A stretch of DNA of 64,000 nucleotides from Akkermansia massiliensis (lineage in GTDB: Bacteria > Verrucomicrobiota > Verrucomicrobiia > Verrucomicrobiales > Akkermansiaceae), in NCBI RefSeq assembly GCF_023516715.1, contig NZ_JAMGSI010000001.1:744001-808000 (forward strand), given 5' to 3'. The notes under the pieces are model-generated. The model made no database searches. It saw only the letters and a program-made list of their open reading frames with translations, and was not told where the DNA came from. Every line of letters starts with the position of its first letter. Position 1 is the first letter of the stretch. Below, in pieces: positions 22,010-63,721 of this stretch. Both the position numbers and the translations under genes were made by a program.

Positions 22010-23592
22010 GTCGCACCCTCACGGGTGCGTGGATTGAAACATCGACGTAAGCTTTTCAGGGTCAATGGTATAGCGTCGCACCCTCACGGGTGCGTGGATT
22101 GAAACCAGCCGGGCGGCAAGCTCCGCTGTGTCTTCGGCAGTCGCACCCTCACGGGTGCGTGGATTGAAACACCAGGAAGCCGCCTTCGTCATGGATGATC
22201 ACGAGTCGCACCCTCACGGGTGCGTGGATTGAAACCGGATGGTAGGTTTCCTTTGCTATGAAGACCCGTGTCGCACCCTCACGGGTGCGTGGATTGAAAC
22301 ATTGGTATCCTCCGGCATGTTCTTGACGTAGATTGTCGCACCCTCACGGGTGCGTGGATTGAAACCTGTCTGCAACGGGTCTTCCGGGTTAAGACGGATG
22401 TCGCACCCTCACGGGTGCGTGGATTGAAACAGAGTCCAAAAGATACTGTTTTGCGCGGCTGGAAGTCGCACCCTCACGGGTGCGTGGATTGAAACCTTAG
22501 TAGTTCCTCAGCCTTGGATTGCATTGCTAGTCGCACCCTCACGGGTGCGTGGATTGAAACTAATAGTTGAATGTTAGTGTGTTGTTATTCTCCGGTCGCA
22601 CCCTCACGGGTGCGTGGATTGAAACCATCTGGGCGGCGGATTGTTCGTGCATGACGGCAGTCGCACCCTCACGGGTGCGTGGATTGAAACCTCAACTTCA
22701 CGCGCTATGTGGTAATCCTCCATAGTCGCACCCTCACGGGTGCGTGGATTGAAACCAATAATTTTTCAAATCTGTAGCATATATCCTTCGTCGCACCCTC
22801 ACGGGTGCGTGGATTGAAACTGACGGCAAGAAGCTGAATAGCCTTTGCCGTCTCGTCGCACCCTCACGGGTGCGTGGATTGAAACGATGGACATGCCGAT
22901 CTTTTCCTCGATTTCGGTTGTCGCACCCTCACGGGTGCGTGGATTGAAACTTCCGGATGGCACGTCAACAACGGTGGGCGTGATGTCGCACCCTCACGGG
23001 TGCGTGGATTGAAACCGGAGGCCCACGGGCGCCGGGCGGCTGATTATCGGTCGCACCCTCACGGGTGCGTGGATTGAAACTCTAACTCCTTTTCAAGGTT
23101 AGCACAAAGCAAGAGTCGCACCCTCACGGGTGCGTGGATTGAAACAACCCTTCTTGCCTGCGGCTTGCAGGGCTTCCAGTCGCACCCTCACGGGTGCGTG
23201 GATTGAAACCGTTGGACAGTGACGCATGGTTATTTTCCGGGAAGTCGCACCCTCACGGGTGCGTGGATTGAAACTAAAGACGTAGTACATTTTTTCGCCC
23301 AGGGCCAGGTCGCACCCTCACGGGTGCGTGGATTGAAACGCTTCGTGGAAGCCTGCTGAAATACGGAAAACATGTCGCACCCTCACGGGTGCGTGGATTG
23401 AAACTATATTTTTTCGTAAGAATCTCTAACTTGTTCACGTCGCACCCTCACGGGTGCGTGGATTGAAACCTGTGTCAGGGTCCGTGATGGTCCTGGTTTC
23501 GAGTCGCACCCTCACGGGTGCGTGGATTGAAACTCCTCCAGAAATTCCACAAAGTCCTTCTGGCTCGTCGCACCCACACGGGTGCGTGGATT
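22010..23592 (+). CRISPR. Type I-C CRISPR array, 25 repeats and 24 spacers
   Basis: The repeat is 31 bp, beginning GTCGCACCCTCACGGGTG and ending CGTGGATTGAAAC. It forms a 7-bp stem (CGCACCC/GGGTGCG) with a TCAC loop and the typical I-C ATTGAAAC end. Repeats start at 22010, 22075, 22140 and so on, nearly always 65 bp apart. Spacers are 34 bp except three that are 33 bp (before the repeats at 23179, 23503 and 23567). The first 24 repeats look identical. The last, at 23567-23592, has a CTC-to-CAC change and stops after GGATT, marking the trailer end. Leader to the left means newest spacers should be at the left. No spacer obviously matches the window, but I did not compare exhaustively. Confidence 0.98.
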
Positions 23593-23616
23593 TAGATGTC
23601 GCAGACTGAACGGCCT

Positions 23617-23621
23617 ACTAT
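23617..23621. repeat. Target-site duplication, left copy (CTAT or ACTAT)
   Basis: ACTAT here is repeated at 57557-57561 at the other prophage edge. With canonical TG...CA ends the duplication is the 4 bp CTAT. If the terminal A is counted as target, it is 5 bp as in Mu. Confidence 0.65.
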
Positions 23622-29844: not shown

Positions 29845-29871
29845 GGTGTGATGAGAGTGGAGAGGTGAGAC

Positions 29872-47051: not shown

Positions 47052-47774
47052 TTAGGCAGTGAGCACGAGGCCGAGTCGGTCGGAGGCGATGCGGTGGTAG
47101 TCCGGTGACAGCTCAATGCCCACGGCCGTATGTCCCTTGTTGCGCGCAGCCACCAGGGTGGTTCCGCTGCCGGCAAACGGGTCCAAGATGCGGGACTTGG
47201 CAGGCAAGATGGTCATGAGGTGCTCCATCAGGGGGACCGGCTTGCCCGTCAAGTGGAGCTTATCCTTGGGGCGGATTGGCTCGCGGACCACTCCCGGAGG
47301 GCATAGCTTGACGGACTTGTTATATCCTCCATGCGTGGCGGTCAGGACGTACTCGGCCTGGTTGCGGTACAGTCCCATCTGGGGGCGGCAGCTTTCCGTC
47401 TTGTCCCAGGGGATGATGCCCCTCCACGTCCAGCCGGCAATCTGCAAGGCGTCGGAGGTGAGCGGGAGTTGACGCCAATCGCTAAATACCATCAGCCAGC
47501 CGCCGGGGCGCGTCAGGCGGAGGGCCTGCTCCATCCACCGCACGGACCACATCAGGTGGGTACGCTGGTCGCGGGTGTCATTGCTAAACGTCGGGTAGTA
47601 TTTACGGGTGCCGGATTGCTGGTACTTGACGCGTGGGTCTTGTGCTCTGGCAGCGGTAGAGAGGCCGCCGCTGGCGTAGGGAGGATCGGTGATCACGGCA
47701 TCATAGGATGCCTCCGGCATCGTCATCATCAGGGACATGCAGTCCCCATGCAACATGGTATGTGTGTTGGTCAT
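47052..47774 (-). CDS. DNA methyltransferase (beta-type order, N6A or N4C)
   Basis: The catalytic motif IV DPPYASGG lies near residue 30 and the SAM-binding motif I DPFAGSGTT near residue 200, the order of beta-class DNA methyltransferases. The target domain lies between. I take the start MTNTHTML at 47774. An upstream in-frame ATG at 47798 adds eight residues. It is a solitary enzyme without a restriction partner. Likely role: protecting phage DNA from host restriction, or regulation. Confidence 0.85.
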   Translation of the reverse strand: MTNTHTMLHGDCMSLMMTMPEASYDAVITDPPYASGGLSTAARAQDPRVKYQQSGTRKYYPTFSNDTRDQRTHLMWSVRWMEQALRLTRPGGWLMVFSDWRQLPLTSDALQIAGWTWRGIIPWDKTESCRPQMGLYRNQAEYVLTATHGGYNKSVKLCPPGVVREPIRPKDKLHLTGKPVPLMEHLMTILPAKSRILDPFAGSGTTLVAARNKGHTAVGIELSPDYHRIASDRLGLVLTA

Positions 47775-47894
47775 CGGACGCGAGCATAGCTCACGCAAGC
47801 ACCTCTCTCTAACGTCACAACAAATTTATTATGAATTTGTTATGCTTGTTAGATGTATAAAATTTATGATCAGAATGTTGCGCTGTGTCATACA

Positions 47895-49303: not shown

Positions 49304-50088
49304 AACACGAGCTAATGATAACCGCTGAAACGCGGGTGACGCTGGGCGTCAGCGAAGCCAACCGCCTGCATCGGTATGCCCAGGCGCAGGCCGAGATGGC
49401 GGCATGCGCCGGCCGCAATGCCGTGACGGCAGGACTCAAGCTGGGCAAGCTGCTGACCGAGCTTAAGGCCGCGACTCCCCATGGAGAGTGGGGTGAATTC
49501 TTCGCCAAAGACGATAAATTGAAACCACGGTTTCAATTTACCCAGCAGATGTCCAACCGCTACATGCGCTGCTACAAGACAGCAGCCGGTCGATTGGCCA
49601 ATACGGAGAGGTATCTCCTGGACGCCGGACTGAGCGGTGAACCTGTCTCCGAACTGCCCACCCTAGTGGATAAAGTAACCGACGGAGCCGAGACACCTCG
49701 ACAGATGGAGATCAACCTGGGAGTTATCTCTACCCGCAAGCGGACAACGCATGACCGGGTTAAGCCCCTGGGATTTACTGGAGCCGGCAACCCTGACGGA
49801 GCGCTGGCCCTCACCCCTATGGACAAGCTGGCCAATGACCTGGCCGCCCTCAATCTCCCCCCGGATGAGCTGGAGCGTCGCCGGCACCAGGCCGAGCAGG
49901 ATGCGGCCTGCCTGCTCAAGCAGCTGGGGACCTTTGTGGACCAAGGCTACATCCACTTATTGCGTCTCCAGGAGCGCGAGCTTTTCGCTGAGTCCTTGGC
50001 CGCCTACGCCCGCAAGATATCCAACGTCGACGAGCAGCGAGTCAAGGCCACGATGGATGGGTTGGTCAACGGCACAACTACATTATAA
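49300..50088 (+). CDS. DUF3102-like phage protein
   Basis: A 262-residue helical protein. Segments include GRNAVTAGLKLGKLLTELKAATPHGEWGEFF and FQFTQQMSNRYMRCYK, a pattern seen in DUF3102 proteins of Mu-like phages and transposable elements. It overlaps the previous gene start-stop as ATGA and precedes the transposase by 4 bp. Function unknown. Confidence 0.55.
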   Translation: MKHELMITAETRVTLGVSEANRLHRYAQAQAEMAACAGRNAVTAGLKLGKLLTELKAATPHGEWGEFFAKDDKLKPRFQFTQQMSNRYMRCYKTAAGRLANTERYLLDAGLSGEPVSELPTLVDKVTDGAETPRQMEINLGVISTRKRTTHDRVKPLGFTGAGNPDGALALTPMDKLANDLAALNLPPDELERRRHQAEQDAACLLKQLGTFVDQGYIHLLRLQERELFAESLAAYARKISNVDEQRVKATMDGLVNGTTTL

Positions 50089-50092
50089 CACA

Positions 50093-52120
50093 ATGGACAA
50101 TATCACCATGGACGATTTACCGCTGGTGGAGCGGGACAGAGTGCTGGCCATCTATGCGGCCTGCAAGCGCATCAAGGAGGCCAGCGCCTGCTATGGAGCG
50201 CAGCAGGGAGCTATCCGGGATGCTGCAGCCCTCTGTGGCATATCCTCCGTCACCATGCGCCGCTGGTATGATATCTGGCGCAACAGCGGAGACAATCCCC
50301 TCTCCCTGGTGGACCGCCGCTACCGCAAGATACAGGCCCGTAGCCGTGTTACCCTCAGCAAATTCTTGGCCTATTGGCACGGTCTCTGCACCCAGTGCCA
50401 GCGCAATGGGGGCATACCCACCGCCAGGCTGCAGCTTATCAAGACCTGGACGGAGAGGCGCGACACCATCCCCGGCTATGAGGACTGGCCGGGCTGGCCG
50501 CGCATCCCCTCCGGCTGGAGCCTGCGCAACCTGCAGCGGCTTGCCCCCCAGACCCTGGAGACGGTGGCGCTCAAGCAGGGCATCCGCACGGCAGCGCCCC
50601 AACTGGCCCAGGTACTGGCCACCCGCGAGGGACTCTGGCTGGGCAGTCATTTCTTGTTTGACGACGTGTGGTTGGACCTCCAGGTCTTATCCGGCCGCGA
50701 CAAGGGGCAGCCCCTGCAGCTTGGGGTGCTGGAGTACCTTACGGGCAAGCGTGTAGCGTGGGGCCAAAAAATCCGCCGCCGCGACGAGGAGACGGGCAAG
50801 ATGATCCATCTTAACAAGCGGGACATGCGCAGCATCCTGGCCCTGTGGGGAGCTACAATCGGATACTCCCCACGAGGAACCACCCTCGTGGTCGAGAATG
50901 GGACGGCCGCCATTGACAAGGAGATGGAGGAGCTGCTCTACCATGCCAGCGGCGGTCTGATCAAGGTGGACCGCTCCGGCATCGGAGGCGTGCGCCAGAC
51001 GCTCAAGCAGGGCCATGGCGGCCGTGGGGTGGGCAACCCGCGCCACAAGGCCCCCCTGGAGAGTTACCACAACCTGCAGCACAACCGCATCAGCCATCTG
51101 CCTGGGGCCACCGGCCACGACCGCACGCCGCCGGAAACCCTGCACGGCCTGGCGCGTGCCGAGGACCAGCTCATCAAGGCGATGGACAAGCTGCCCGCGG
51201 ATAGAGCCGGTCAACTCAAGCACTACATGCTGACCATGGACGAGTTGAGTCACGAGCTCACTAAGATTGTCAGCGACATCAATGCCCGCACCACCCACAA
51301 GCTGGAGGGCTGGGAGCGCTGCGGTTACATGGTTGAGGAGCTGCGCCTGTCACCCTCCGCGCCCTGGACTCCGTCCTGCGAGGTGGAGCCGTCCATGGCC
51401 GCCCAGATCATCCGCACCGCCTGCGAGACCGGAGCCGACCTGGTGCACCGCCGCCGGATGAGCCCCACCGAGGCATGGGATTACGAGGAGGCCAAGCCGG
51501 GCAACAGGCTTATCAAGCTGCCCGCCTGGTGCATCTGTCAGATACTGGGCATGGACCTGGCCCGCCCCATCAAGGTGGCCAGCGCCTACATCCGGATGCG
51601 CGACAAGGCTATCCAGGACGAGGAGCTGATCTACGAGGCCCGCGTGGTTACTCCTGACGGAGCCATCCGGGAGCTGGCCCACGGCAAGTACCAGGGCTAC
51701 GTCAATCCCTACGATGCCAACCAGCTATTTGTGTGCGGTCAGGACGGCCGCATCATCGGCACTGCAGGCCTCGTGCAGAGGGTCTGCACGGCGGATACGC
51801 ACGCCGTGGAGCAGGCCATGGGCAAGGCGGCCGGGCGCCGGGAGCATCAGCTGGAGTATGCCCGCATCATCGGAGCCAAGGACGAGGCGGATATTGTCCG
51901 CAAGCGCGAGCACAACAGGCGGTTGATGGAGGGCAAGCCGGTCACGGCAGCCGAGTATGCCCAGGCATACTCCCTCACCCCCACGCCTGCCGATAAGCGG
52001 GCCGTGACTAGGGCAGCCACGGCGGCGGCCGAGTCCATGCCGGACATCAGCCTCATCCCCGCCAGCGGCAACGATGACGACGAGCTGCCCCACGACCTGC
52101 CCGATGTAAGATTTTTATAA
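50093..52120 (+). CDS. DDE transposase (MuA-like)
   Basis: This 675-residue transposase catalyses integration and replicative transposition. It has an N-terminal HTH region (RDAAALCGISSVTMRRWYDIW), a catalytic core with FDDVWLDL (Asp190/191), VVENGTAAID (Glu268 at the usual second Asp) and KAPLESYHNLQHNR (Glu323). The 55-residue spacing between the last two acids matches MuA. The start MDNITMDDLPL at 50093 follows four bases after the previous stop. A longer upstream frame to 49751 is a shadow of the preceding gene. It partners with the downstream MuB-like ATPase. Confidence 0.9.
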   Translation: MDNITMDDLPLVERDRVLAIYAACKRIKEASACYGAQQGAIRDAAALCGISSVTMRRWYDIWRNSGDNPLSLVDRRYRKIQARSRVTLSKFLAYWHGLCTQCQRNGGIPTARLQLIKTWTERRDTIPGYEDWPGWPRIPSGWSLRNLQRLAPQTLETVALKQGIRTAAPQLAQVLATREGLWLGSHFLFDDVWLDLQVLSGRDKGQPLQLGVLEYLTGKRVAWGQKIRRRDEETGKMIHLNKRDMRSILALWGATIGYSPRGTTLVVENGTAAIDKEMEELLYHASGGLIKVDRSGIGGVRQTLKQGHGGRGVGNPRHKAPLESYHNLQHNRISHLPGATGHDRTPPETLHGLARAEDQLIKAMDKLPADRAGQLKHYMLTMDELSHELTKIVSDINARTTHKLEGWERCGYMVEELRLSPSAPWTPSCEVEPSMAAQIIRTACETGADLVHRRRMSPTEAWDYEEAKPGNRLIKLPAWCICQILGMDLARPIKVASAYIRMRDKAIQDEELIYEARVVTPDGAIRELAHGKYQGYVNPYDANQLFVCGQDGRIIGTAGLVQRVCTADTHAVEQAMGKAAGRREHQLEYARIIGAKDEADIVRKREHNRRLMEGKPVTAAEYAQAYSLTPTPADKRAVTRAATAAAESMPDISLIPASGNDDDELPHDLPDVRFL

Positions 52121-52144: not shown

Positions 52145-53185
52145 ATGGACGACATCACCAAAATCAACAACGACGCCGACCTGAGCAGATATCTGGCACG
52201 CATCCCGGCCACGCCCTACAAGCAAGGCCACAAGAAGATGCTTACGGACCTGATCAACTACGCCGTCGAGCATCAGTGGACCCTGCGTACTCTGGCCGAC
52301 AAGCTGCCGGTGAGCACGACGGTCATGCACCGTCTGCTCAACGGTACCTACCAAGCGCCTGCCGGCCCCCATCTGGCCAAGCTGGACGACCTGTGCGGCG
52401 TCCTTTCCCTACGCCAGCAGTCAACCTCGGACGGCCCGTTTATTGAGACGGCTCTGGCGCGCTACGTGATGCAGATTGCCGAGCTGACCCACGTTAATCA
52501 ATACGCCTCCATGCTGGTGGGCAAGACGCAGTGGGGCAAGACCTGGGCGCTCAAGGAGTATGCCCGCCGCCACCCCGGCACGGTCATCCTGGTGCGCTGC
52601 CCGGTAGTCACCAGTCCGGGACGGCTGCTCTACCGCATTGCCGCTCAATTAGGCCTGTCGGTCAAAGGCAACACCGAGTTCCAGATTGCCAAGATTGTCA
52701 ACCGCCTGACTCCGGAGCACCTGCTCATTGTCGACGAGATCCACCACGCGCTGGACAGCGACAAGACCGGACGCAAGGGCATTGAGCAGCTGCGGGAGAT
52801 ATACGATGAGACCCAGTGCGGCATGCTCCTGGTGGGCACACCTGTATTGGCTGAGTACGTGGAGCATAATGACAAGTGGCAGGGCATCCTGGAGCAGACC
52901 TCCAAGCGCGGAGCGGCCAATATCTACCGCCTCCCGGATTACATTGAGACCCGTGACCTGGAGACGCTCTGGACCTACTACGGCTATCCGACTCCCAGCC
53001 GGGCCATGCTGGCCACCCTCAAGCAGCAGGCCAACCTGTACGGATTTGGCAAGACTACCAAGCGCCTGCGCAAGGGTCTGGAGGCAGCCAACAATGCAGG
53101 GGTGGACCTCACCTGGGACTACTACCTGGCCGCGGTTAGAAAACTTGAAGAAATGGAAGCCGGCAAGATGCCGGAACACGTATAA
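52145..53185 (+). CDS. MuB-like transposition target-selection ATPase
   Basis: A 346-residue AAA+ ATPase with an N-terminal HTH (RTLADKLPVSTTVMHRLLNG, near residue 50), a P-loop GKTQWGKT at 126-133 and Walker B LLIVDEIHHA with Asp197/Glu198. It lies directly after the transposase, as in Mu. It binds target DNA and stimulates the transposase. Its A-rich leader (AACAATATG) lacks a Shine-Dalgarno, like neighbouring early genes. Confidence 0.9.
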   Translation: MDDITKINNDADLSRYLARIPATPYKQGHKKMLTDLINYAVEHQWTLRTLADKLPVSTTVMHRLLNGTYQAPAGPHLAKLDDLCGVLSLRQQSTSDGPFIETALARYVMQIAELTHVNQYASMLVGKTQWGKTWALKEYARRHPGTVILVRCPVVTSPGRLLYRIAAQLGLSVKGNTEFQIAKIVNRLTPEHLLIVDEIHHALDSDKTGRKGIEQLREIYDETQCGMLLVGTPVLAEYVEHNDKWQGILEQTSKRGAANIYRLPDYIETRDLETLWTYYGYPTPSRAMLATLKQQANLYGFGKTTKRLRKGLEAANNAGVDLTWDYYLAAVRKLEEMEAGKMPEHV

Positions 53186-54946: not shown

Positions 54947-55474
54947 ATGACTAAATTAACAACACGCAACACCGGACTGGCCACCCTGGCCGAGTACGAG
55001 CAATGCCTGGACCAGATCGCCGAGCTGACCGTCAAGCGAGACAAGGCTCAGGCCCGACTGGACAAGGCCATTCTGGCCGCCCGCGAGGAGCACGGCGGAG
55101 TAGTTGATGGCCTCAACAACCTGATCACCGCCAAGCTGGCCCAGGCCGAGCAGTATGCCATCCGCAACCGGGAGGCGCTCCTGCAAGGGGACGCCAAGTC
55201 CGGAGAGACCGGCAAGGCCCGATGGGGTTGGAGACTGGGCAATCCCACACTGGTGCTACTCTCCCGCAAATTCACTTGGGGAGCCGTTTGCAACAAGATT
55301 AAGGAGATGGGACTCACCGCCTACCTCAAGGTGTCCGATCCCAAGCCGGACAAGGACAAGCTCAAGGCCGAGCTGGATGACGAGCGGCTGGCCGCCCTGG
55401 GACTACGCATTGAGCAGACGGAGGCATATTGGGTAGAGCCTAAGACTGACACAGCAGGGAGGATAAGCGCATGA
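54947..55474 (+). CDS. Gam-like host nuclease inhibitor
   Basis: A 175-residue protein matching the Mu Gam family. It has an N-terminal coiled-coil (YEQCLDQIAELTVKRDKAQARLDKAIL), then GKARWGWRLGNPTL and a conserved C-terminal core with an AYLKVSDPKPDKDKLKA region. Mu Gam binds DNA ends and protects them from RecBCD. It lies in the early operon as in Mu. Confidence 0.85.
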   Translation: MTKLTTRNTGLATLAEYEQCLDQIAELTVKRDKAQARLDKAILAAREEHGGVVDGLNNLITAKLAQAEQYAIRNREALLQGDAKSGETGKARWGWRLGNPTLVLLSRKFTWGAVCNKIKEMGLTAYLKVSDPKPDKDKLKAELDDERLAALGLRIEQTEAYWVEPKTDTAGRISA

Positions 55475-56279: not shown

Positions 56280-56509
56280 GTGATCCTGACTATCCGCTCA
56301 CCTGGCCGGAGGCTCTTAGAGCTGCCAAGGAGGGAGCCATGATTGAGTCTGCCTGCTTATCTCAATTGGATGGATACCGCATTATGGCAGTATTCAGCCC
56401 ATCCAAGGGGGTGCTAGTCGATCATATTTGGCAGGACTGGGTTATTGACATCGGCAGTAACGAGGTCCGATCTGGATGGCGTATCGTCCCACAGGAGGAG
56501 CAACCATGA
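56276..56509 (+). CDS. Hypothetical early protein, remotely DUF2829/Tad2-like
   Basis: 77 residues from MSDPDYPLTWPEALRAAKEG. The layout (WxEALRAAKEGAxIES near the start, then SGWRIV at the end) recalls the DUF2829 fold used by Tad2 anti-Thoeris proteins. The similarity is weak and not tested. Start chosen for the ATGA overlap with the previous gene. Confidence 0.5.
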   Translation: MSDPDYPLTWPEALRAAKEGAMIESACLSQLDGYRIMAVFSPSKGVLVDHIWQDWVIDIGSNEVRSGWRIVPQEEQP

Positions 56510-56748
56510 GGATACTGGACACGATCCTGCGCCTGCTGCCATATCAGCGCACCATGCTGGAGACGGATATACCTGCCGACGCGACACTGGAGTGGTGCCG
56601 GAGACCTCGCCGAGGCATTAGGTTGGTTCAGTCTTGCCCCCCCGCGAGTAATGTAGTGAGAGGATACTCCGGCCGTGTAGTCGTCGATGAGTTTAATCCC
56701 ATCCTCATCGACATGGAGCAGCCCAGTGTTCCGTCGGATAACAACTAA
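56506..56748 (+). CDS. Hypothetical early protein before the solitary CRISPR-like repeat
   Basis: 80 residues from MRILDTILRLLPYQRTMLET. It overlaps the previous gene by ATGA and its TAA ends one base before the solitary repeat. No motif recognised. Confidence 0.55.
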   Translation: MRILDTILRLLPYQRTMLETDIPADATLEWCRRPRRGIRLVQSCPPASNVVRGYSGRVVVDEFNPILIDMEQPSVPSDNN

Positions 56749-56749
56749 C

Positions 56750-56780
56750 TTTTCGCCCTCACAGGGGCGTGGATTGAAAC
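56750..56780 (+). repeat. Solitary type I-C-like CRISPR repeat inside the prophage early operon
   Basis: A 31-bp copy matching the host array repeat at 25 of 31 positions, with identity over the last 14 bp (GCGTGGATTGAAAC). The stem is rebuilt as CGCCC (56754-56758) pairing GGGCG (56765-56769), with a CACA loop extended by a T-G wobble, so the hairpin survives although the bases changed. It lies in the 44-bp gap between two early genes on the sense strand, without a spacer array. This is the layout of a phage solitary repeat unit. Confidence 0.92.
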
Positions 56781-56792
56781 AGAAAAAACATC

Positions 56793-57023
56793 ATGAAAAC
56801 CTTAACTCCAGGCGATAAGCTTAATTGCTACGTTATTGATCGCAATGGCCAACAGTCCAATCTAGCCATCCAGATACTTGTTGTTGCCACCAAGCAATCC
56901 CTGTATGCTGACGGCCTCTATTCTACTATTCTGGGTATCGTCGATGAGCGGACGGGTAAGCTGATAGAGGATCATCCGGGCAAGGAGATGACTCCATTTG
57001 TCCGCGCTTTATGCGATGACTAG
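56793..57023 (+). CDS. Last early-operon protein
   Basis: 76 residues starting MKTLTPGDKLNCYVIDRNGQ, a small beta-rich protein (LAIQILVVATKQ, TILGIVDERTGKLIED). It starts 12 bp after the solitary repeat and ends just before the early terminator. Its expression could depend on how the repeat is processed. Function unknown. Confidence 0.6.
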   Translation: MKTLTPGDKLNCYVIDRNGQQSNLAIQILVVATKQSLYADGLYSTILGIVDERTGKLIEDHPGKEMTPFVRALCDD

Positions 57024-57037
57024 CCCAGATACCATTC

Positions 57038-57068
57038 AGGCCGCCAGGGACAACCTGGCGGCCTTTTT
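57038..57068 (+). terminator. Early operon terminator
   Basis: A perfect 11-bp stem (AGGCCGCCAGG and inverse) with a GACAA loop and T5 tail ends the rightward early operon. Confidence 0.88.
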
Positions 57069-57557: not shown

Positions 57558-57561
57558 CTAT
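57557..57561. repeat. Target-site duplication, right copy (CTAT or ACTAT)
   Basis: Matches 23617-23621. Joining left and right flanks would restore a continuous region between the array trailer and the cas7 terminator. Confidence 0.65.
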
Positions 57562-57656: not shown

Positions 57657-58481
57657 TCAGAAGCCTTCAATCATTTCCGGGGTTAACCCCGGTAGATCAT
57701 ATTTCTTTACAATATTTCCATCCTCGGAGACTTCAATGGAATGGTGAACCTTGGCAGAAGAGTATTGACCGCTTTTACAGTTATGTTCCCACCAAATGAC
57801 TTTTTGAATAGACATGCTACCTTCCGGTCGTGCAGAGGAGGCATCTCCTTCAAACATCTGAGGAAGCGCTTGTTTGAAAATGGATGCATCTTCATCCGAG
57901 AAGCCTGTGAGTTCTGCCAGCTGCGGATTGATTGCTCCAAAGAAGACATAGGTGCCCTTGTCCACCCGGTGCTTCATGCCCATGGTGTCGGAAGATTTTT
58001 TACTGCCGTCTCCGTCATTGCTGACGCTTTTCGTGATTTGTGTACTAGTGATATTCACCGTATCTCTGCTGAAGGCAGGTTGAATAGTGACTGGGCCTCT
58101 GATTCCTATGGAGACGCCGGTGCCTTTTGCCGCATCTTTGTCTTTTAAGGCAAAGACCTGTCCAAAAGCTCTCACATCATACCATTCCTGACAGGCTTTT
58201 TGTGCCAGTTCAGCAGACGTACCTTTTTGTTTCAGGATGGGAGTAGCACGTTCTTTCAATGTTTTATAGTCGTCTACACGTCTGTCGTCTGACTGGACAA
58301 AGATGTTTTGTCCCATGTCCATCAGCTTATTGCGGATTTTTCTTTTAAGACAGACATCGGAGATTTCTCCGAGTCCTTCCAAAGTGGTTCTGGGCCGGTT
58401 GCCATCGAGGGGGTCTCCGTTGGGGTTAGCGTTTGTAACGGTAAAGATGACGGCAAAGTCGATTTTATGATTAAGGCTCAT
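57657..58481 (-). CDS. cas7: Cas7 (Csd2), type I-C Cascade backbone
   Basis: A 274-residue Cas7 of subtype I-C. It forms the filament that holds crRNA. Family features: the opening LNHKIDFAVIFTVTNANPNGDPLDGNRPRT, CLKRKIRNKLMDMGQ, GVSIGIRGPVTIQPAFS and the C-terminal KVIWWEHNCKSGQYSSAKVHH region. The size is typical. It is the last gene of the effector arm and precedes a terminator. Downstream lies the prophage, not cas4. Confidence 0.95.
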   Translation of the reverse strand: MSLNHKIDFAVIFTVTNANPNGDPLDGNRPRTTLEGLGEISDVCLKRKIRNKLMDMGQNIFVQSDDRRVDDYKTLKERATPILKQKGTSAELAQKACQEWYDVRAFGQVFALKDKDAAKGTGVSIGIRGPVTIQPAFSRDTVNITSTQITKSVSNDGDGSKKSSDTMGMKHRVDKGTYVFFGAINPQLAELTGFSDEDASIFKQALPQMFEGDASSARPEGSMSIQKVIWWEHNCKSGQYSSAKVHHSIEVSEDGNIVKKYDLPGLTPEMIEGF

Positions 58482-58523
58482 GATGTGGTTTTATAGTGTT
58501 GAATTAATGTTTTATTCTAAGAT

Positions 58524-60515
58524 TTATTTTGCCAGTTCAGCATTTTTTTCTTCTTTAGTTTTGTAAATGAAGGCTCTCTGGCAGTGGTAACCGAGGAGGT
58601 AGGCGCCGGTTAATGGTCCGTTATCCATGAACTGTCCCATGAGGAATGTTTCCATGATATTGTCTATGTAAGCATCATAGCTTTTCAAGAAAGAAACGGT
58701 GTTTTCATTTTTCTTCAAAATGTTGCGATAGGGCTGAATGCTTTTTTCCAGCATGGGCCATGTTTCTGACGGTCTTTGCTGGAACCGCTGCATAAGTTTT
58801 TCCGCATTGGTGGGGCGGGAGGTTTTCGTGATATTTAATGCTGATGTTTCGATGGCTTCTGCAACGGCTAAAAGACGGCCGAAGAGGTAACTGCGATCTG
58901 TGATTTTTGGATCAAGGCTCATGGTATCTGAGGACGAAGTATTTGTTTGTGGATGATTATAAAGATAAACGGAACAGGATACTCCCAAGGTCATTTCCCA
59001 TTCCCACCATTCCATGGCATGTCGTTTGGATGTCTGGAGAACACATTGTTTTTCCAGGTCCGGAGGAATGGGAAGATTGTGAAGAATACAGGGTAGTAGT
59101 CTGGAGAGGGCGTGTTTGCGTAGTTTATCGTCTACCTTTATTCCATACGCTGCTTTGACAATCATGGAGATAGACGGCGCGCCAATATAAGATCGGTCAT
59201 TTCCTTCTTTGTCTTTAGGAAGGCATTGTTTCCATCTGGCTTTGGAATGCCACGAAAGCAGGTTGTTAAGGTATTCGGAGACGGTGAATTCCTGAAAGCT
59301 CGAGAGGGACATGCGCCCCGGCGACGCAGAATTCAAGCTGAGAACAAGAACACGGTTTTTAATATCGTTTTCATTCAATGATGTCCGCAGCAGCTCTTTT
59401 CCTCCTCCGGAGAGTTCTTTTTTAAATTGCTTAACCAATTGGGTGACTTGGTCATTCGGTGTTGGCTGGTCGGGCGTGTAGTGTTCCCATTCCTGCACAT
59501 TGCCGCAGGGAGACGGAACTTTCAACAGACCGGGAGACCAGGCGAGAACGACAAGATCTCCATCATACCAGCCTTGGCGGGAGATAAGCCAGCGAAGCGC
59601 GCTGTGGGCTTTTTGGGTGACTTCCGTACTTACTCCGCACGCTTCATCCGCTTCAATGAATCTGCCGCGGTAGGTATAGCCGGAACTGTCATTGGAAGAA
59701 ATGAGTTTGGCTTTGTCGCCGGCGTTTCTGATGCGTGCCGGGTGAGTGGTTGCCAGAGGTGCTGTTTTTCCCAGGACATAGCACATCCCTTCTTTGTTGG
59801 CCTTGGATTCCGTATAAATCCGCCAGGATTCGTACATGGCGGGGTCTTCATACACTTCCGGAGGGCTTCCATCCCTGCTGTTGACCTTCCATCTTATGAA
59901 CGCATTTTCCTGGGTGGATGCTCCCAGGATTTCAAAGATGGCGGGCATTTCCCGTTTGTCCCCTTTCCATACAGGAAGCAGAGTGTTGGTGGAATCTTCC
60001 GCATATAGGATTCCCCCGTTGATCAAGTCCGTGATCAGGGATTTTTTACGAATATAGGCCAGAACGGCGTTCAGTTTGACATTACCGGGATCAAATGCCG
60101 CCCATTCCGATAATTGCTGTTCATATTGTTCGTAGGATTCCTGAAGGGTTTTGAGTTGCTTTGTCCGTTTGGCCGGGGATTCTTCCGGAGGGAAATAGTC
60201 AGCGTTATCACCTGCCACGTATTGGAGCTTGTCACACAGAGGGTGGGCACAGGCTCCGCTGGTGCGGCCTCCTGAGGCTTCCGTAACGGGGATGATGGTG
60301 GGTTGACTGTTCTGATTGTTGAGGGATGCATTAATTAGCTCTCCCTGTTTGTTCAGTGTGATGGTGATGTGAGCATTCTGCATGCTGTGGTACAGCGGCA
60401 GAAGAGGGGTAATGAGGCGTTCTTTCCTGTTGCCGTGGGCCGGTTCTTTGTCAATACGACCCACATAATCACGGTTTTGTTCATAGGTGGCGTATAAGGC
60501 GTGCATCCAGTTCAT
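58524..60515 (-). CDS. cas8c: Cas8c (Csd1), type I-C large subunit
   Basis: A 663-residue protein of the Cas8c/Csd1 family, which recognises the PAM and recruits Cas3. Recognisable parts: HPLCDKLQYVAGDN, FIRWKVNSRDG, KAHSALRWLISRQGWYDGDLVVLAWS and a C-terminal YLFGRLLAVAEAIE, with helical C-terminal region (GAYLLGYHCQRAFIYK). In I-C the gene also encodes a small subunit from an internal start (cas11c); I did not locate that start. It lies 42 bp upstream of cas7. Confidence 0.92.
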   Translation of the reverse strand: MNWMHALYATYEQNRDYVGRIDKEPAHGNRKERLITPLLPLYHSMQNAHITITLNKQGELINASLNNQNSQPTIIPVTEASGGRTSGACAHPLCDKLQYVAGDNADYFPPEESPAKRTKQLKTLQESYEQYEQQLSEWAAFDPGNVKLNAVLAYIRKKSLITDLINGGILYAEDSTNTLLPVWKGDKREMPAIFEILGASTQENAFIRWKVNSRDGSPPEVYEDPAMYESWRIYTESKANKEGMCYVLGKTAPLATTHPARIRNAGDKAKLISSNDSSGYTYRGRFIEADEACGVSTEVTQKAHSALRWLISRQGWYDGDLVVLAWSPGLLKVPSPCGNVQEWEHYTPDQPTPNDQVTQLVKQFKKELSGGGKELLRTSLNENDIKNRVLVLSLNSASPGRMSLSSFQEFTVSEYLNNLLSWHSKARWKQCLPKDKEGNDRSYIGAPSISMIVKAAYGIKVDDKLRKHALSRLLPCILHNLPIPPDLEKQCVLQTSKRHAMEWWEWEMTLGVSCSVYLYNHPQTNTSSSDTMSLDPKITDRSYLFGRLLAVAEAIETSALNITKTSRPTNAEKLMQRFQQRPSETWPMLEKSIQPYRNILKKNENTVSFLKSYDAYIDNIMETFLMGQFMDNGPLTGAYLLGYHCQRAFIYKTKEEKNAELAK

Positions 60516-60531
60516 CTTTTTCTTTTTCCTT

Positions 60532-61227
60532 TCATTCTCCCAGGCTCAGATCATTCAGTCCGCTGGATCTTGGCGGGCATGCCGCCATGGGGCGTACATG
60601 CTTGACAATTTCGCATGCTTCAGGGCGCACGAAGCGGATCATTCCATTTTCCATGACCGGACGCCAAAAACGTATGGAAAGCTCCTCTTTTCCCGTTTCA
60701 TCCGGATAATTGAAACCATGGAACATGAGTCCGAAAGACGTGTTTCCATATTGGTCATAGAATCCCTTTCCTTCTCCAAACCGGCATGGTTCCACGTATC
60801 CCTGGCATTCCCTGGTTCCCAACGCGATGTCCCTACGTCCTCCGCGGTCAATCATGCGACGGGCAATTTCATAATGCTTGCCGTCGATCCGGTCCTTGGA
60901 CATATCCGGACGGTACATGTTCCATTCAAAATGAGCCTTGACTTGATATTCCACATCTTGAAGGTAGGTATATACGGATAAATCCGCCCCGGCTTCATGA
61001 TATTTGATCAGTTTCATATTTTTGGGAACCAGACGGATAGGGCGCATTATTCTCACCTCGTCAATTAACCAGATCAGGGTGGGTTTCCAGTAGACCGCCT
61101 TTACAATTCCTTTCAGGGCTTCATAAGTGGGGATTTGATAAGAACATTTTTCTCCGCCTATCCGGGTGAGGGGGTCGGAGAAAAGCGCATATTTCCCGTA
61201 GACCTTAAATTCGATTTGATTAAGCAT
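60532..61227 (-). CDS. cas5c: Cas5c, pre-crRNA endonuclease of type I-C
   Basis: 231 residues. Cas5c replaces Cas6 in I-C and cuts the repeat to make crRNA with an 11-nt 5' tag. Features: N-terminal FKVYGKYALFSDPLTRIGGEKCSYQIPTYEALKG, a middle KAHFEWN region and a FYDQYGNTSFGLMFHGFNYPD segment. The conserved 3' end of the repeats is its expected recognition zone, which matters for the solitary phage repeat. Located 16 bp upstream of cas8c. Confidence 0.94.
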   Translation of the reverse strand: MLNQIEFKVYGKYALFSDPLTRIGGEKCSYQIPTYEALKGIVKAVYWKPTLIWLIDEVRIMRPIRLVPKNMKLIKYHEAGADLSVYTYLQDVEYQVKAHFEWNMYRPDMSKDRIDGKHYEIARRMIDRGGRRDIALGTRECQGYVEPCRFGEGKGFYDQYGNTSFGLMFHGFNYPDETGKEELSIRFWRPVMENGMIRFVRPEACEIVKHVRPMAACPPRSSGLNDLSLGE

Positions 61228-61249
61228 GAATATGAAGCTGTTGAAATTT

Positions 61250-63721
61250 TTAAATCCGGGAAACGGTCAGCGCACCGGAAGTCTCTCCGGGGTCTGTGAG
61301 AAAGCCCAGAAATGGATCATATTTATTAGGTACTGTTGTATAAATATCCACTCCTTCCTGTATACGCATGATGTCTCCCGCATTCAAGTATTTTCCAAGA
61401 AGTCGGTTGGAAATCGCGACGGAATAGGCTCTGGCTTTTTGGATCCATTCATTCCATTGTTCCCATTCTTCATCCGTATGAGGATTCATGTTCCAGAGTT
61501 TTTCCCTGCATTCTTCCCCTCTTCCATAAGGGGTGATAACAGCTATTGTATCAACCTGGATCGGATGATAGTGGCGTGCTGCCGAGTCAAAGGCCTGGAA
61601 AAGACGAAGGGGAGCATATTTGGACTGCTGACGGGGATATGTCATCAGTTTGGAATTTTGAGATAGCGCATCCTCCATGTTGGTGACGACGCCGGAGCAT
61701 TTAAACGGGTAAGACAGATGATCATGATTATGAGAGCGGGTGAGCTTGCCGTAGAATTCCTTAAAATAGAGCGAAACGGATTTGTTTCCCAGAATTCCTC
61801 CTTCTTCAGGATCACAAATCATTCCCATAGCAATTTCTCTTCCGATTTCAAGTTCCCGGAGAGAATCCAGTCTTTCCAGATTGCCTGCGGGATTAATCAG
61901 GATAACTCTTCCCCCGGGACGGTTGGCGTCCCTGTTGCATCGGCCTGCCGCTTGAGTGCAGGAATCCAGGCCGGCCACGCTCCGTATGATTACGTCAAAA
62001 TCTACGTCCACTCCGGCTTCAATGAGGCCGGTACTGATGCACACAACGGCTTTTCCCTTCCTTCTGGCCTTTTCCAGGGATTCTTTGTCAATACGGTTCG
62101 TGATGATTTCTTTCCTGTGGGCAGGGCACATGTTGGTGCTGAGGTGGAAAACGTCCGCCTCTGTATTCAGGTCCCGGCAGGCGCAGGCCAGTTTAGAGGC
62201 CAGTTTTTTGGTGTTTACGATGACGAGGGTGGGGCCTTTGGAGAAAGCTTGCTCCATGATGGAGTCCCTCATTTTTTCTACGGTCCAGTAATTGGAGGAT
62301 TTTAGTTCACAGACAACCTCGCATTGACGGAATTGGCTAAATTGATCGAAATAAGCTTGGCTGTCCGGAATAATAGGTGTTTCGATGAGATGAGCATGCG
62401 TTCCGTCTTCCGTGGCAGTTTCCGGAGGAGTAGCCGTACAGCGGATGGTGCTGCTGTGGCAGATGCCGGAGAGAAAATCCAGCGAATGTTCAAAAAGCCG
62501 TAGTGAGGTTGGGGGAATAGCTTGCACTTCGTCAAAAATAACAACGGCATTTGCCAGGGAGTGCATGCGCCGCACATGCTGTTTGCCGGATGCATATAAG
62601 GCATTCAAGTATTGGACGGATGTAGTGAGTACAATGGGAACGTTCCATGTTTGAGTGGCTTCCATGTACCAGGTTTTTCTTTTCGGTGACCATGGTTCCA
62701 TTTCTCCCTCCTCGTTAAGGGTTTCCTTCACCAGATTGGAATGATGCTCCAGGATGCAGTCTTTATATTCATTTCCAAGTACTTTCCGGATGGCATTGGC
62801 CGTTTGGTCAAGAATGGAGGTATAGGGAATGATGTAGATGATGCGTGACAAATGGTGCCGCCGTGCATGTTCCAAGGCAAATCTGAGGCTTGAGAGAGTT
62901 TTGCCTGCACCGGTGGGAAGTGTAAGGTTCCACTTGCCAACTTGTCCTGGCGCAGCTTGAAGGCACTCCTGCGACATGGCTGCCCGGCTTTGATTGATGG
63001 GAGTATCAGCCTTGAATTGTTCGAGATGTTTATTCAAGTTTTTTAACATTCCTTCCCAATCCGGGTCCGGAATGCTTTCGTAGCTTCCTTTTCCGGAAGC
63101 ACTGGTGTAATCCGCTTCGATAAGGCTGCTCAAGCAGAACCGTGCGATTAGTCCGGCATGGAATGCTTGTTTTTTTGGACAGTGGCCAAACAGGGTGGCA
63201 AGGAGGGTGTAAACATTCTTGAATTCCGTGGCCAGTTCCGTTTTTTTCAGGAGAGAGTAGTAATGATCTTTCTCCTGAAACGTCAATTTGGACAGGATTT
63301 CATCAAGATGGGTTTTCTCTCCGGATTTTTCCATGCGCTTGGAGAATACGTCATCTCCGGGCATCGTGCCACGGAAGCAGTCAATGAGAGCAGAGTTGTG
63401 ATGGGAGGCAATACATAAAGCAATGATTTGCCGGAAGATAAAAAATTCTTCAGAGTCCTCCGGGATGGGAAAATAATTCCAGACAAACTGGGCTCCAGCA
63501 GTGGAATGGTCTATGCCGCTTTTTGGAATTGGAGGACTGATATGTTGAGAGAGAGCATCCATGTATTGCTGAAAGTCTGCACTCATTTTGCCGAAGTCGT
63601 GCATGCCGCCGATCAAGGCCCCAAATTGCGATAGCCCTAAGGGAGCAAGCAGGGTAGACATCGTACGGGAACATTCTTGTTCGTGAGTGGAAAGAGACTG
63701 ATGGGGGCGAGCCTGATACAT
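61250..63721 (-). CDS. cas3: Cas3 helicase-nuclease
   Basis: An 823-residue Cas3 with N-terminal HD nuclease (LIGGMHDFGKMSADFQQYM, HD at about residue 40) and C-terminal SF2 helicase. Motif I is TGAGKTLSSLRFAL, motif II is FDEVQAIPP, motif III TATPPE and later SAGLIEAGVDVDFDV-type and SCTQAAGRCNRDA. It degrades target DNA. It heads the effector arm and is divergent from cas4. Two in-frame starts (MYQARPH and MSTLLAPLG) exist; I use the longer. Confidence 0.94.
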   Translation of the reverse strand: MYQARPHQSLSTHEQECSRTMSTLLAPLGLSQFGALIGGMHDFGKMSADFQQYMDALSQHISPPIPKSGIDHSTAGAQFVWNYFPIPEDSEEFFIFRQIIALCIASHHNSALIDCFRGTMPGDDVFSKRMEKSGEKTHLDEILSKLTFQEKDHYYSLLKKTELATEFKNVYTLLATLFGHCPKKQAFHAGLIARFCLSSLIEADYTSASGKGSYESIPDPDWEGMLKNLNKHLEQFKADTPINQSRAAMSQECLQAAPGQVGKWNLTLPTGAGKTLSSLRFALEHARRHHLSRIIYIIPYTSILDQTANAIRKVLGNEYKDCILEHHSNLVKETLNEEGEMEPWSPKRKTWYMEATQTWNVPIVLTTSVQYLNALYASGKQHVRRMHSLANAVVIFDEVQAIPPTSLRLFEHSLDFLSGICHSSTIRCTATPPETATEDGTHAHLIETPIIPDSQAYFDQFSQFRQCEVVCELKSSNYWTVEKMRDSIMEQAFSKGPTLVIVNTKKLASKLACACRDLNTEADVFHLSTNMCPAHRKEIITNRIDKESLEKARRKGKAVVCISTGLIEAGVDVDFDVIIRSVAGLDSCTQAAGRCNRDANRPGGRVILINPAGNLERLDSLRELEIGREIAMGMICDPEEGGILGNKSVSLYFKEFYGKLTRSHNHDHLSYPFKCSGVVTNMEDALSQNSKLMTYPRQQSKYAPLRLFQAFDSAARHYHPIQVDTIAVITPYGRGEECREKLWNMNPHTDEEWEQWNEWIQKARAYSVAISNRLLGKYLNAGDIMRIQEGVDIYTTVPNKYDPFLGFLTDPGETSGALTVSRI

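Follow-up and report, generated by a model that had tools for sequence, protein, structure and literature searches.

A solitary type I-C repeat-like element, probably an RNA anti-CRISPR, in Mu-like Akkermansia prophages found mostly in or at CRISPR arrays

Solitary repeats, RNA anti-CRISPRs and prophages in the CRISPR repeats of Streptococcus pyogenes are already known. Varble is said to have reported in 2021 the integration of prophages into CRISPR loci of S. pyogenes, and this integration into a CRISPR repeat reportedly is a site-specific recombination. The excerpt of PMC10359306 drawn on here places it in the direct repeats. Mu-like phages reportedly show little sequence preference when they integrate, and transposition of the Mu-like phage DMS3 in Pseudomonas aeruginosa removes the CRISPR2 region under self-targeting (both from extracts of PMC11406979). 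For solitary viral repeats two roles had been put forward, inhibition of Cas proteins and integration into arrays, the second in a sentence of PMC10651486 that cites its references 4 and 17, and inhibition was then shown (extracts of the same paper). These extracts also describe RacrIC1, which lies directly behind acrIC5 in a Bifidobacterium prophage, is carried on the same transcript and inhibits type I-C, and RacrIF1, in which the stem-loop is essential and the handle is not. The program SRUFinder discards matches below 90% identity and applies a score cut-off against a library of 17,823 repeats (Camara-Wilpert 2023, PMC10651486, in extract).

The window analyzed here is a 64,000-bp stretch of a 3.28-Mb Akkermansia massiliensis genome (bases 744001 to 808000 of contig C1). 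A sequence-only reading of this DNA had pointed to a solitary type I-C repeat in a prophage (p1), at 56750 to 56780 on the + strand, with the sequence TTTTCGCCCTCACAGGGGCGTGGATTGAAAC. Compared with the host type I-C repeat used as reference, GTCGCACCCTCACGGGTGCGTGGATTGAAAC, a recount returned the claimed match of 25/31 positions, and the claimed identity of the last 14 nt was seen again; to the closest of three host repeats the identity is 81%. The second-best site within the prophage scores 19/31 against the host repeat and the best score in 200 first-order Markov simulations of prophage length was 22/31, so the match is far above chance. For GGGCGTGGATTGAAAC with up to 2 mismatches, 0.05 matches are expected in the window. 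The reading was also right that no spacer array accompanies the element, which is a single copy in the prophage, whereas array repeats occur only outside it, the nearest being 33 kb leftward (array 22010 to 23597) and 9.2 kb rightward (C1:810010, outside both window and prophage). As in the described solitary repeat units (SRUs) that act as RNA anti-CRISPRs (Racr), the unit thus stands alone in a mobile element and resembles a CRISPR subtype present in the host, here one with a type I-C effector operon.

The element lies in the sense strand between two early genes, as claimed. A 90-aa ORF (56476 to 56748, +) ends with its stop codon 1 nt before it, a 76-aa ORF (56793 to 57023, +) starts 12 nt after it, and a terminator-like hairpin (57038 to 57064, +) follows the early operon 3' of the 76-aa ORF. 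Homologs of the 76-aa ORF adjoin the element in p2, G034, L016, L017 and L069. Neither these two nor the other small ORFs near the element could be assigned to a family, and the structure model of the 76-aa protein is of low confidence (pLDDT 66).

The prophage is transposable and Mu-like: it encodes a MuA-type transposase (49751 to 52120, +; phrog_310, E 1.6e-9), a MuB/TniB-type AAA+ ATPase (52145 to 53185, +; phrog_296, PF05621) and Gam (54947 to 55474, +; PF07352), and it is bordered by a short target duplication. Its 33,936 bp (23622 to 57557, ends TGTAACG.../...CCTCA) lie between two copies of CTAT, at 23618 to 23621 and 57558 to 57561, and the empty site in G166 has a single copy (ATAT). 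All five insertions with both flanks read (p1, p2, G010, G166 and G015) show a 4-bp duplication. The prophage also contains a DNA methyltransferase gene (47052 to 47798, -; phrog_67), a possible second anti-defense gene. Between 29851 and 45523 its late genes hold 7 to 8 copies of GAGAGTTGAGAGTGGAG-like tracts (starts at 29851, 32897, 34297, 36608, 37127, 39199, 43680 and 45478), which fall in repeat families D3 and D4.

The host I-C system that the sequence-only reading had placed next to the prophage is real. Its effector operon, cas7c-cas8c-cas5c-cas3 (57657 to 63721, -), starts about 95 bp beyond the right end of the prophage and consists of cas7c (57657 to 58481, -), cas8c (58524 to 60515, -), cas5c, the pre-crRNA nuclease (60532 to 61227, -), and cas3 (61250 to 63721, -). 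The host I-C array (22010 to 23597, +) has 24 exact repeats and one degenerate last repeat. Seen from the operon, the prophage directly adjoins cas7c, and the array follows in the opposite direction. The closest PDB entry to the host Cas5c is Bacillus halodurans Cas5d (4f3m, 7.9e-90), and the alignment conserves the positions of a YWKPT tyrosine and a Lys-His pair, which we take to be the residues that the B. halodurans enzyme (BhCas5c) uses. BhCas5c uses Tyr, His and Lys, and Cas5c cuts hairpin repeats, leaving an 11-nt handle (extracts of PMC3727216).

Is the element kept in other phages? Ten related Akkermansia phage loci have it in the corresponding place, close to where the early operon ends (p1, p2, G034, L016, L017, L069, G010, G015, G166 and L067/L158); together they represent 7 distinct sequence variants. 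Here p2 is a second prophage of the same genome (C1:811.4 to 843.7 kb), and L016, L017, L069 and L067/L158 are IMG/VR contigs. The gene beside the element led to p2, G034, L016 and L017, and the element pattern itself led to L067/L158 and L069; the unbiased sample is a MuB search of 76 same-genus genomes, which gave 19 matches. In this sample, the element is present in 6/6 of the closest MuB matches (p1, G010, G166, G015, p2 and G034; 35 to 100% identity), and the partial stretches scanned for the 13 more distant ones (25 to 35%) had no element inside the phage. The contigs L018, L159 and L157 stop short of the place of the element, which therefore cannot be read in them. The right-end ORF, used as a query, retrieved no further phages of this group. 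Pattern scans covered 8 and 34 stretches, and only matches in the Akkermansia phage group entered the counts; the others were ordinary arrays (Psychrobacter and others) or solitary look-alikes in other phyla and were left out. Among the look-alikes, the beta-proteobacterial contigs L074, L076, L081 and L099 have TTTTCGCCC..GGGCGTGGATTGAAAC followed directly by ATG, and the viral contig L073 has three closely placed copies of a similar unit.

All 10 loci and 7/7 variants have the handle core GGATTGAAA unchanged. The wider frame TTTTCGC...GCG[C/T]GGATTGAAAC is kept in 8/10 loci (5/7 variants), p2 and L017 having CTGGTGC at the left and T at the end, and the exact frame was found in 5/76 same-genus genomes. 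In the window, a predicted hairpin CGCCCTCACAGGGGCG (56754 to 56769, +) is followed by a predicted 11-nt crRNA-type 5' handle TGGATTGAAAC (56770 to 56780, +) that is identical to the host repeat and lies downstream of the expected Cas5c cut. The stem CGCCCU/GGGGCG (-10.3 kcal/mol by RNA folding) is re-paired and not copied from the host repeat, and 41/2000 inner shuffles fold equally well. The hairpin is strong in 3/7 variants (p1, G015/G166 and L016) and weak in the other four (G010, G034, p2 and L017; 369 to 752 of 2000 shuffles fold equally well). Hence, the proposal that the hairpin is kept although stem bases changed is borne out in part, by the three variants with strong pairing and less so by the four with poor pairing. 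The sequence-only reading had named random drift in related prophages among the results that would speak against it; no such drift is seen in the handle, which is the conserved part of the element, and the stem drifts.

Some variants carry GCGCGGATTGAAAC, the handle with C at its first base. This sequence is present in 3/76 same-genus genomes, once in each, always at the element and never in an array, so these elements are not stray host repeats. The expected Cas5c cut falls just 5' of the first handle base; C-variants may therefore be handled differently.

The surroundings of the element bear on the second proposal of the sequence-only reading, that Cas5c cuts the early mRNA and the element thereby works as a sensor of host Cas activity. 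In the form considered here, a switch or sensor, cleavage at the tag would alter the expression of the downstream 76-aa gene. This gene is found 3' of the element in 6/10 loci, its ATG 12 to 15 nt away, and five of these six loci share the spacer AACAGAAAAA..ATCATG. However, the element persists although neighboring genes differ between loci, and in G010, G015, G166 and L067/L158 it is conserved without the 76-aa gene, with non-coding sequence and a terminator after it. Because of these four loci we disfavor the sensor proposal and regard a regulatory switch as very unlikely.

Host spacers show that the conflict between I-C immunity and this phage family is real. We tested 581 distinct I-C spacers from the fetched arrays against 12 phage sequences of the family; 23 match at up to 6 mismatches, 12 of them at up to 1 mismatch. 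The three bases before these 12 protospacers are TTC (6), TTT (4), TGC (1) and GAG (1), TTC being a reported I-C motif (PMC8406640, in extract). G022, a genome lacking both the element pattern and a MuB match, contributes sixteen of the 23 spacers. G010 has two spacers that match its own prophage at 33/34 (TTT) and 34/35 (TTC) positions, each with the mismatch at position 1, yet the prophage is kept. The arrays of the carriers G000, G034, G166 and G322, as far as sampled, have no spacer against their own prophage at up to 6 mismatches. A smaller search with 167 spacers gave phage matches only from G010; its apparent matches in L017 were that contig's own array inside the test sequence and were discarded.

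We conclude that the element is probably an RNA anti-CRISPR of the solitary-repeat kind, a phage-borne mimic of the host I-C repeat. It would be transcribed as the tail of the Mu-like early operon, and Cas5c, then possibly Cas7c, would bind or process it instead of pre-crRNA, so that less functional I-C Cascade would be available in infection and in lysogeny. Placed on an early transcript, the repeat mimic would occupy Cas5c when protection of the phage matters most. This conclusion, the first proposal of the sequence-only reading, draws indirect support from the conservation of the element, the intact cognate I-C operon, the I-C spacers against the phage family and the precedent of RacrIC1. 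Three findings count against it, namely, the weak hairpin in 4/7 variants, given the essential stem-loop of RacrIF1; the presence of the element in G015, whose host lacks both a Cas8c match and any I-C repeat of the pattern used; and the distant MuB relatives that lack the element in the stretches scanned. Conservation of the handle before the stem may reflect that Cas5c is itself the I-C processing enzyme. Separation of the array from its leader, or an unknown Acr protein, could also explain why G010 tolerates self-targeting.

The phages that carry the element are repeatedly found in or at CRISPR arrays. We read phage ends by comparing relatives and call window-type those phages with the left end TGTAACG or with an early operon running out at the right end. 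All eight window-type phages with a readable end lie in or at an array (8/8), as judged from repeats read beside the end in seven and from homology in one (L016), and the element itself is readable in six of these eight; L157/G326, with an unmappable phage end, and L069, whose contig ends at the gene, are left out of this tally. The window prophage sits 20 bp past the last, degenerate repeat of array 22010 to 23597, which adjoins its left end. The same junction is found without an insertion in G034 (91.6% over 1469 bp) and G166 (90%). Both genomes have a prophage at another place in this orthologous array: that of G034 has its end 31 bp ahead of a repeat, and that of G166 is in the leader, 62 bp ahead of the first repeat. 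A single array has thus taken three insertions. The G166 target is a 14-bp palindrome, CCTCCCATGGGAGG, around the duplication CATG (read by eye).

The other insertions are spread over further arrays. The second prophage of the window genome splits a 34-nt spacer of a second array, and two related array-inserted Mu-like prophages flank one I-C effector operon, one on each side (L010, L040 and L011). The insertions in L017, 6 bp before a repeat, and in L159/G327, inside a repeat, show the trailer of the second array type (read by eye). The weakest case is L016, whose record has no repeat; an alignment of its flank with the sequence from C1:844577 on places the insertion, by homology, about 21 bp beyond the final repeat of the second array. 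The G010 prophage interrupts a spacer in yet another array; in L018/G322 the array has nine repeats, and the phage is 11 bp from one of them. Across the family, then, insertions fall in spacers, leader, trailer and once a repeat, and the distance to the nearest repeat varies from 6 to 31 bp, with 62 bp in G166 and one insertion inside a repeat. A rule that insertions avoid repeats was dropped on account of G327. A crude joint chance of 5e-12 was obtained for p1, p2, G010 and G034 only, under the assumption of uniform insertion.

Phages of a second type, that of G015 (ends TGAAAAGGGAC and GTTACA), are at an array in one of three cases (G166); neither G015 nor L067/L158 is inserted at an array, and the G015 genome is the one named above that lacks a Cas8c match and I-C repeats of the pattern used. 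More distant relatives give a mixed picture. One end of the G271 phage (MuB 33%) apparently falls about 26 nt from a repeat in an array of 106 repeats, and the stretch scanned has no element. In G288, which has I-C repeats and Cas8c, there is no array in the stretches of 70 and 48 kb read around the MuB matches on C1 and C18, and arrays lie about 12 kb from a partial MuB match on C15. The same I-C repeat occurs near this partial match in two stretches about 13.6 kb apart (C15:76508 to 76810 and 90443 to 91464; L133), perhaps another interrupted array, and a solitary hairpin unit ending in GTGCGTGGATTGAAAC is found between them, near 78.7 kb. The MuB match of p2 contains one in-frame TAA. Nine further genomes with distant MuB matches (G246, G258, G263, G289, G298, G300, G303, G229 and G309) have no Cas8c match and are thus a poor control for array preference.

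Why, then, are these phages at arrays? The insertions themselves are plain, and their origin, by targeting or by selection, is what we infer. Random Mu transposition followed by selection for lysogens with a disrupted array would account for the self-targeting spacers of G010, both of which lie in the array half to the right of the prophage, cut off from the left, presumed leader, side, and the removal of CRISPR2 by DMS3 (PMC11406979, in extract) is a parallel. Against selection, all nine array-associated insertions spare the cas genes, although the effector genes (about 6 kb) offer a target as large as the arrays or larger; p1 and, by homology, L016 are beyond the last repeat and disconnect nothing; and the spacers of G000, G034, G166 and G322 do not match their own prophages within the limit given above, lost spacers being invisible. 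We therefore consider selection alone unlikely, if a serious contender, and judge targeting by the MuA/MuB complex to be the more likely explanation.

The element might itself serve such targeting, with a repeat-like RNA or DNA, perhaps together with I-C Cas proteins, steering MuA/MuB to the array. The carriers are at arrays (the eight window-type phages and G166), the window MuB matches TniB, and an earlier proposal held that solitary repeats enable viruses to integrate into arrays (PMC10651486, in extract). However, the element lies about 780 bp inside the window prophage, and the phage in G271 is apparently at an array with no element in the stretch scanned. We rejected recombination between element and repeat as the integration route because the insertions with both ends read show 4-bp duplications and the element is internal. 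A part of the element in array targeting is accordingly hard to credit. It is likewise improbable that the element resembles the delocalized guide of a CRISPR-associated transposon, as the 35 nt after it differ between phages and, in the stretches searched, match only their own locus and its homologs, and the distance between insertion and repeat varies, unlike the fixed spacing of RNA-guided insertion. A guide RNA was sought directly in the 35 nt after six elements and the reading given up, with no target match in the stretches searched.

Alternatively, an array-dwelling phage may have captured a repeat by accident, and the element may be neutral. Phages living in arrays have access to repeats, and the stem drifts, but the handle core is invariant though the MuB proteins are only 34 to 49% identical to that of the window and the neighboring sequence differs, and we give neutral capture little credence. 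A combined scheme, in which the family homes to host arrays as its attachment region and the element, as RNA or in Cas-bound form, both jams the I-C system and tethers the transposition complex to arrays, seems to us quite unlikely; if it were true, the phage would disable and occupy the very memory that targets it. Our preferred reading of the element remains that of an RNA anti-CRISPR.

How does this family compare with known systems? Like RacrIC1, the element is a solitary, intergenic I-C mimic in a prophage, shortly after a small early gene, in a host that has the same subtype, and Cas binding is proposed for both (PMC10651486, in extract). Unlike Racr, it matches the host repeat at only 25 of 31 positions, its handle is more conserved than its stem, some variants of the family have C at the first handle base, and the carrier phages live in arrays; its activity is predicted. 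The S. pyogenes prophage likewise sits in a CRISPR array and can interrupt it, whereas here a Mu-like transposase, 4-bp duplications and varying positions are found, and one of nine array-associated insertions (G327) is in a direct repeat. With CRISPR-associated transposons with delocalized guides (PMC11656645, in extract), the family shares an AAA+ TniB-like protein and an atypical solitary repeat; it differs in that no matching spacer was found in the stretches searched and insertion positions follow no fixed spacing, and the prophage genes tested include no cas genes. Open-license titles and abstracts on transposable phages in CRISPR arrays, on prophages integrated into CRISPR loci and on Akkermansia prophages with CRISPR do not describe this family.

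In summary, what is new here is the handle-first conservation of the element and the array-dwelling habit of its carriers; one phage family pairs a repeat mimic with repeated insertion at differing array positions, and the old idea of solitary repeats in integration becomes directly testable through it. The variants, with their defined base changes around the expected Cas5c cut, offer a ready-made natural set of repeat mimics for dissecting I-C RNA anti-CRISPRs. With Mu and DMS3 the family shares MuA, MuB, Gam, a Mu-type portal and TG...CA ends. It differs from Mu in its 4-bp target duplication, that of Mu being 5 bp, and from both phages in its concentration at arrays, and it thus adds a group with an apparent array preference to the Mu-like phages, which are described as inserting with little preference.
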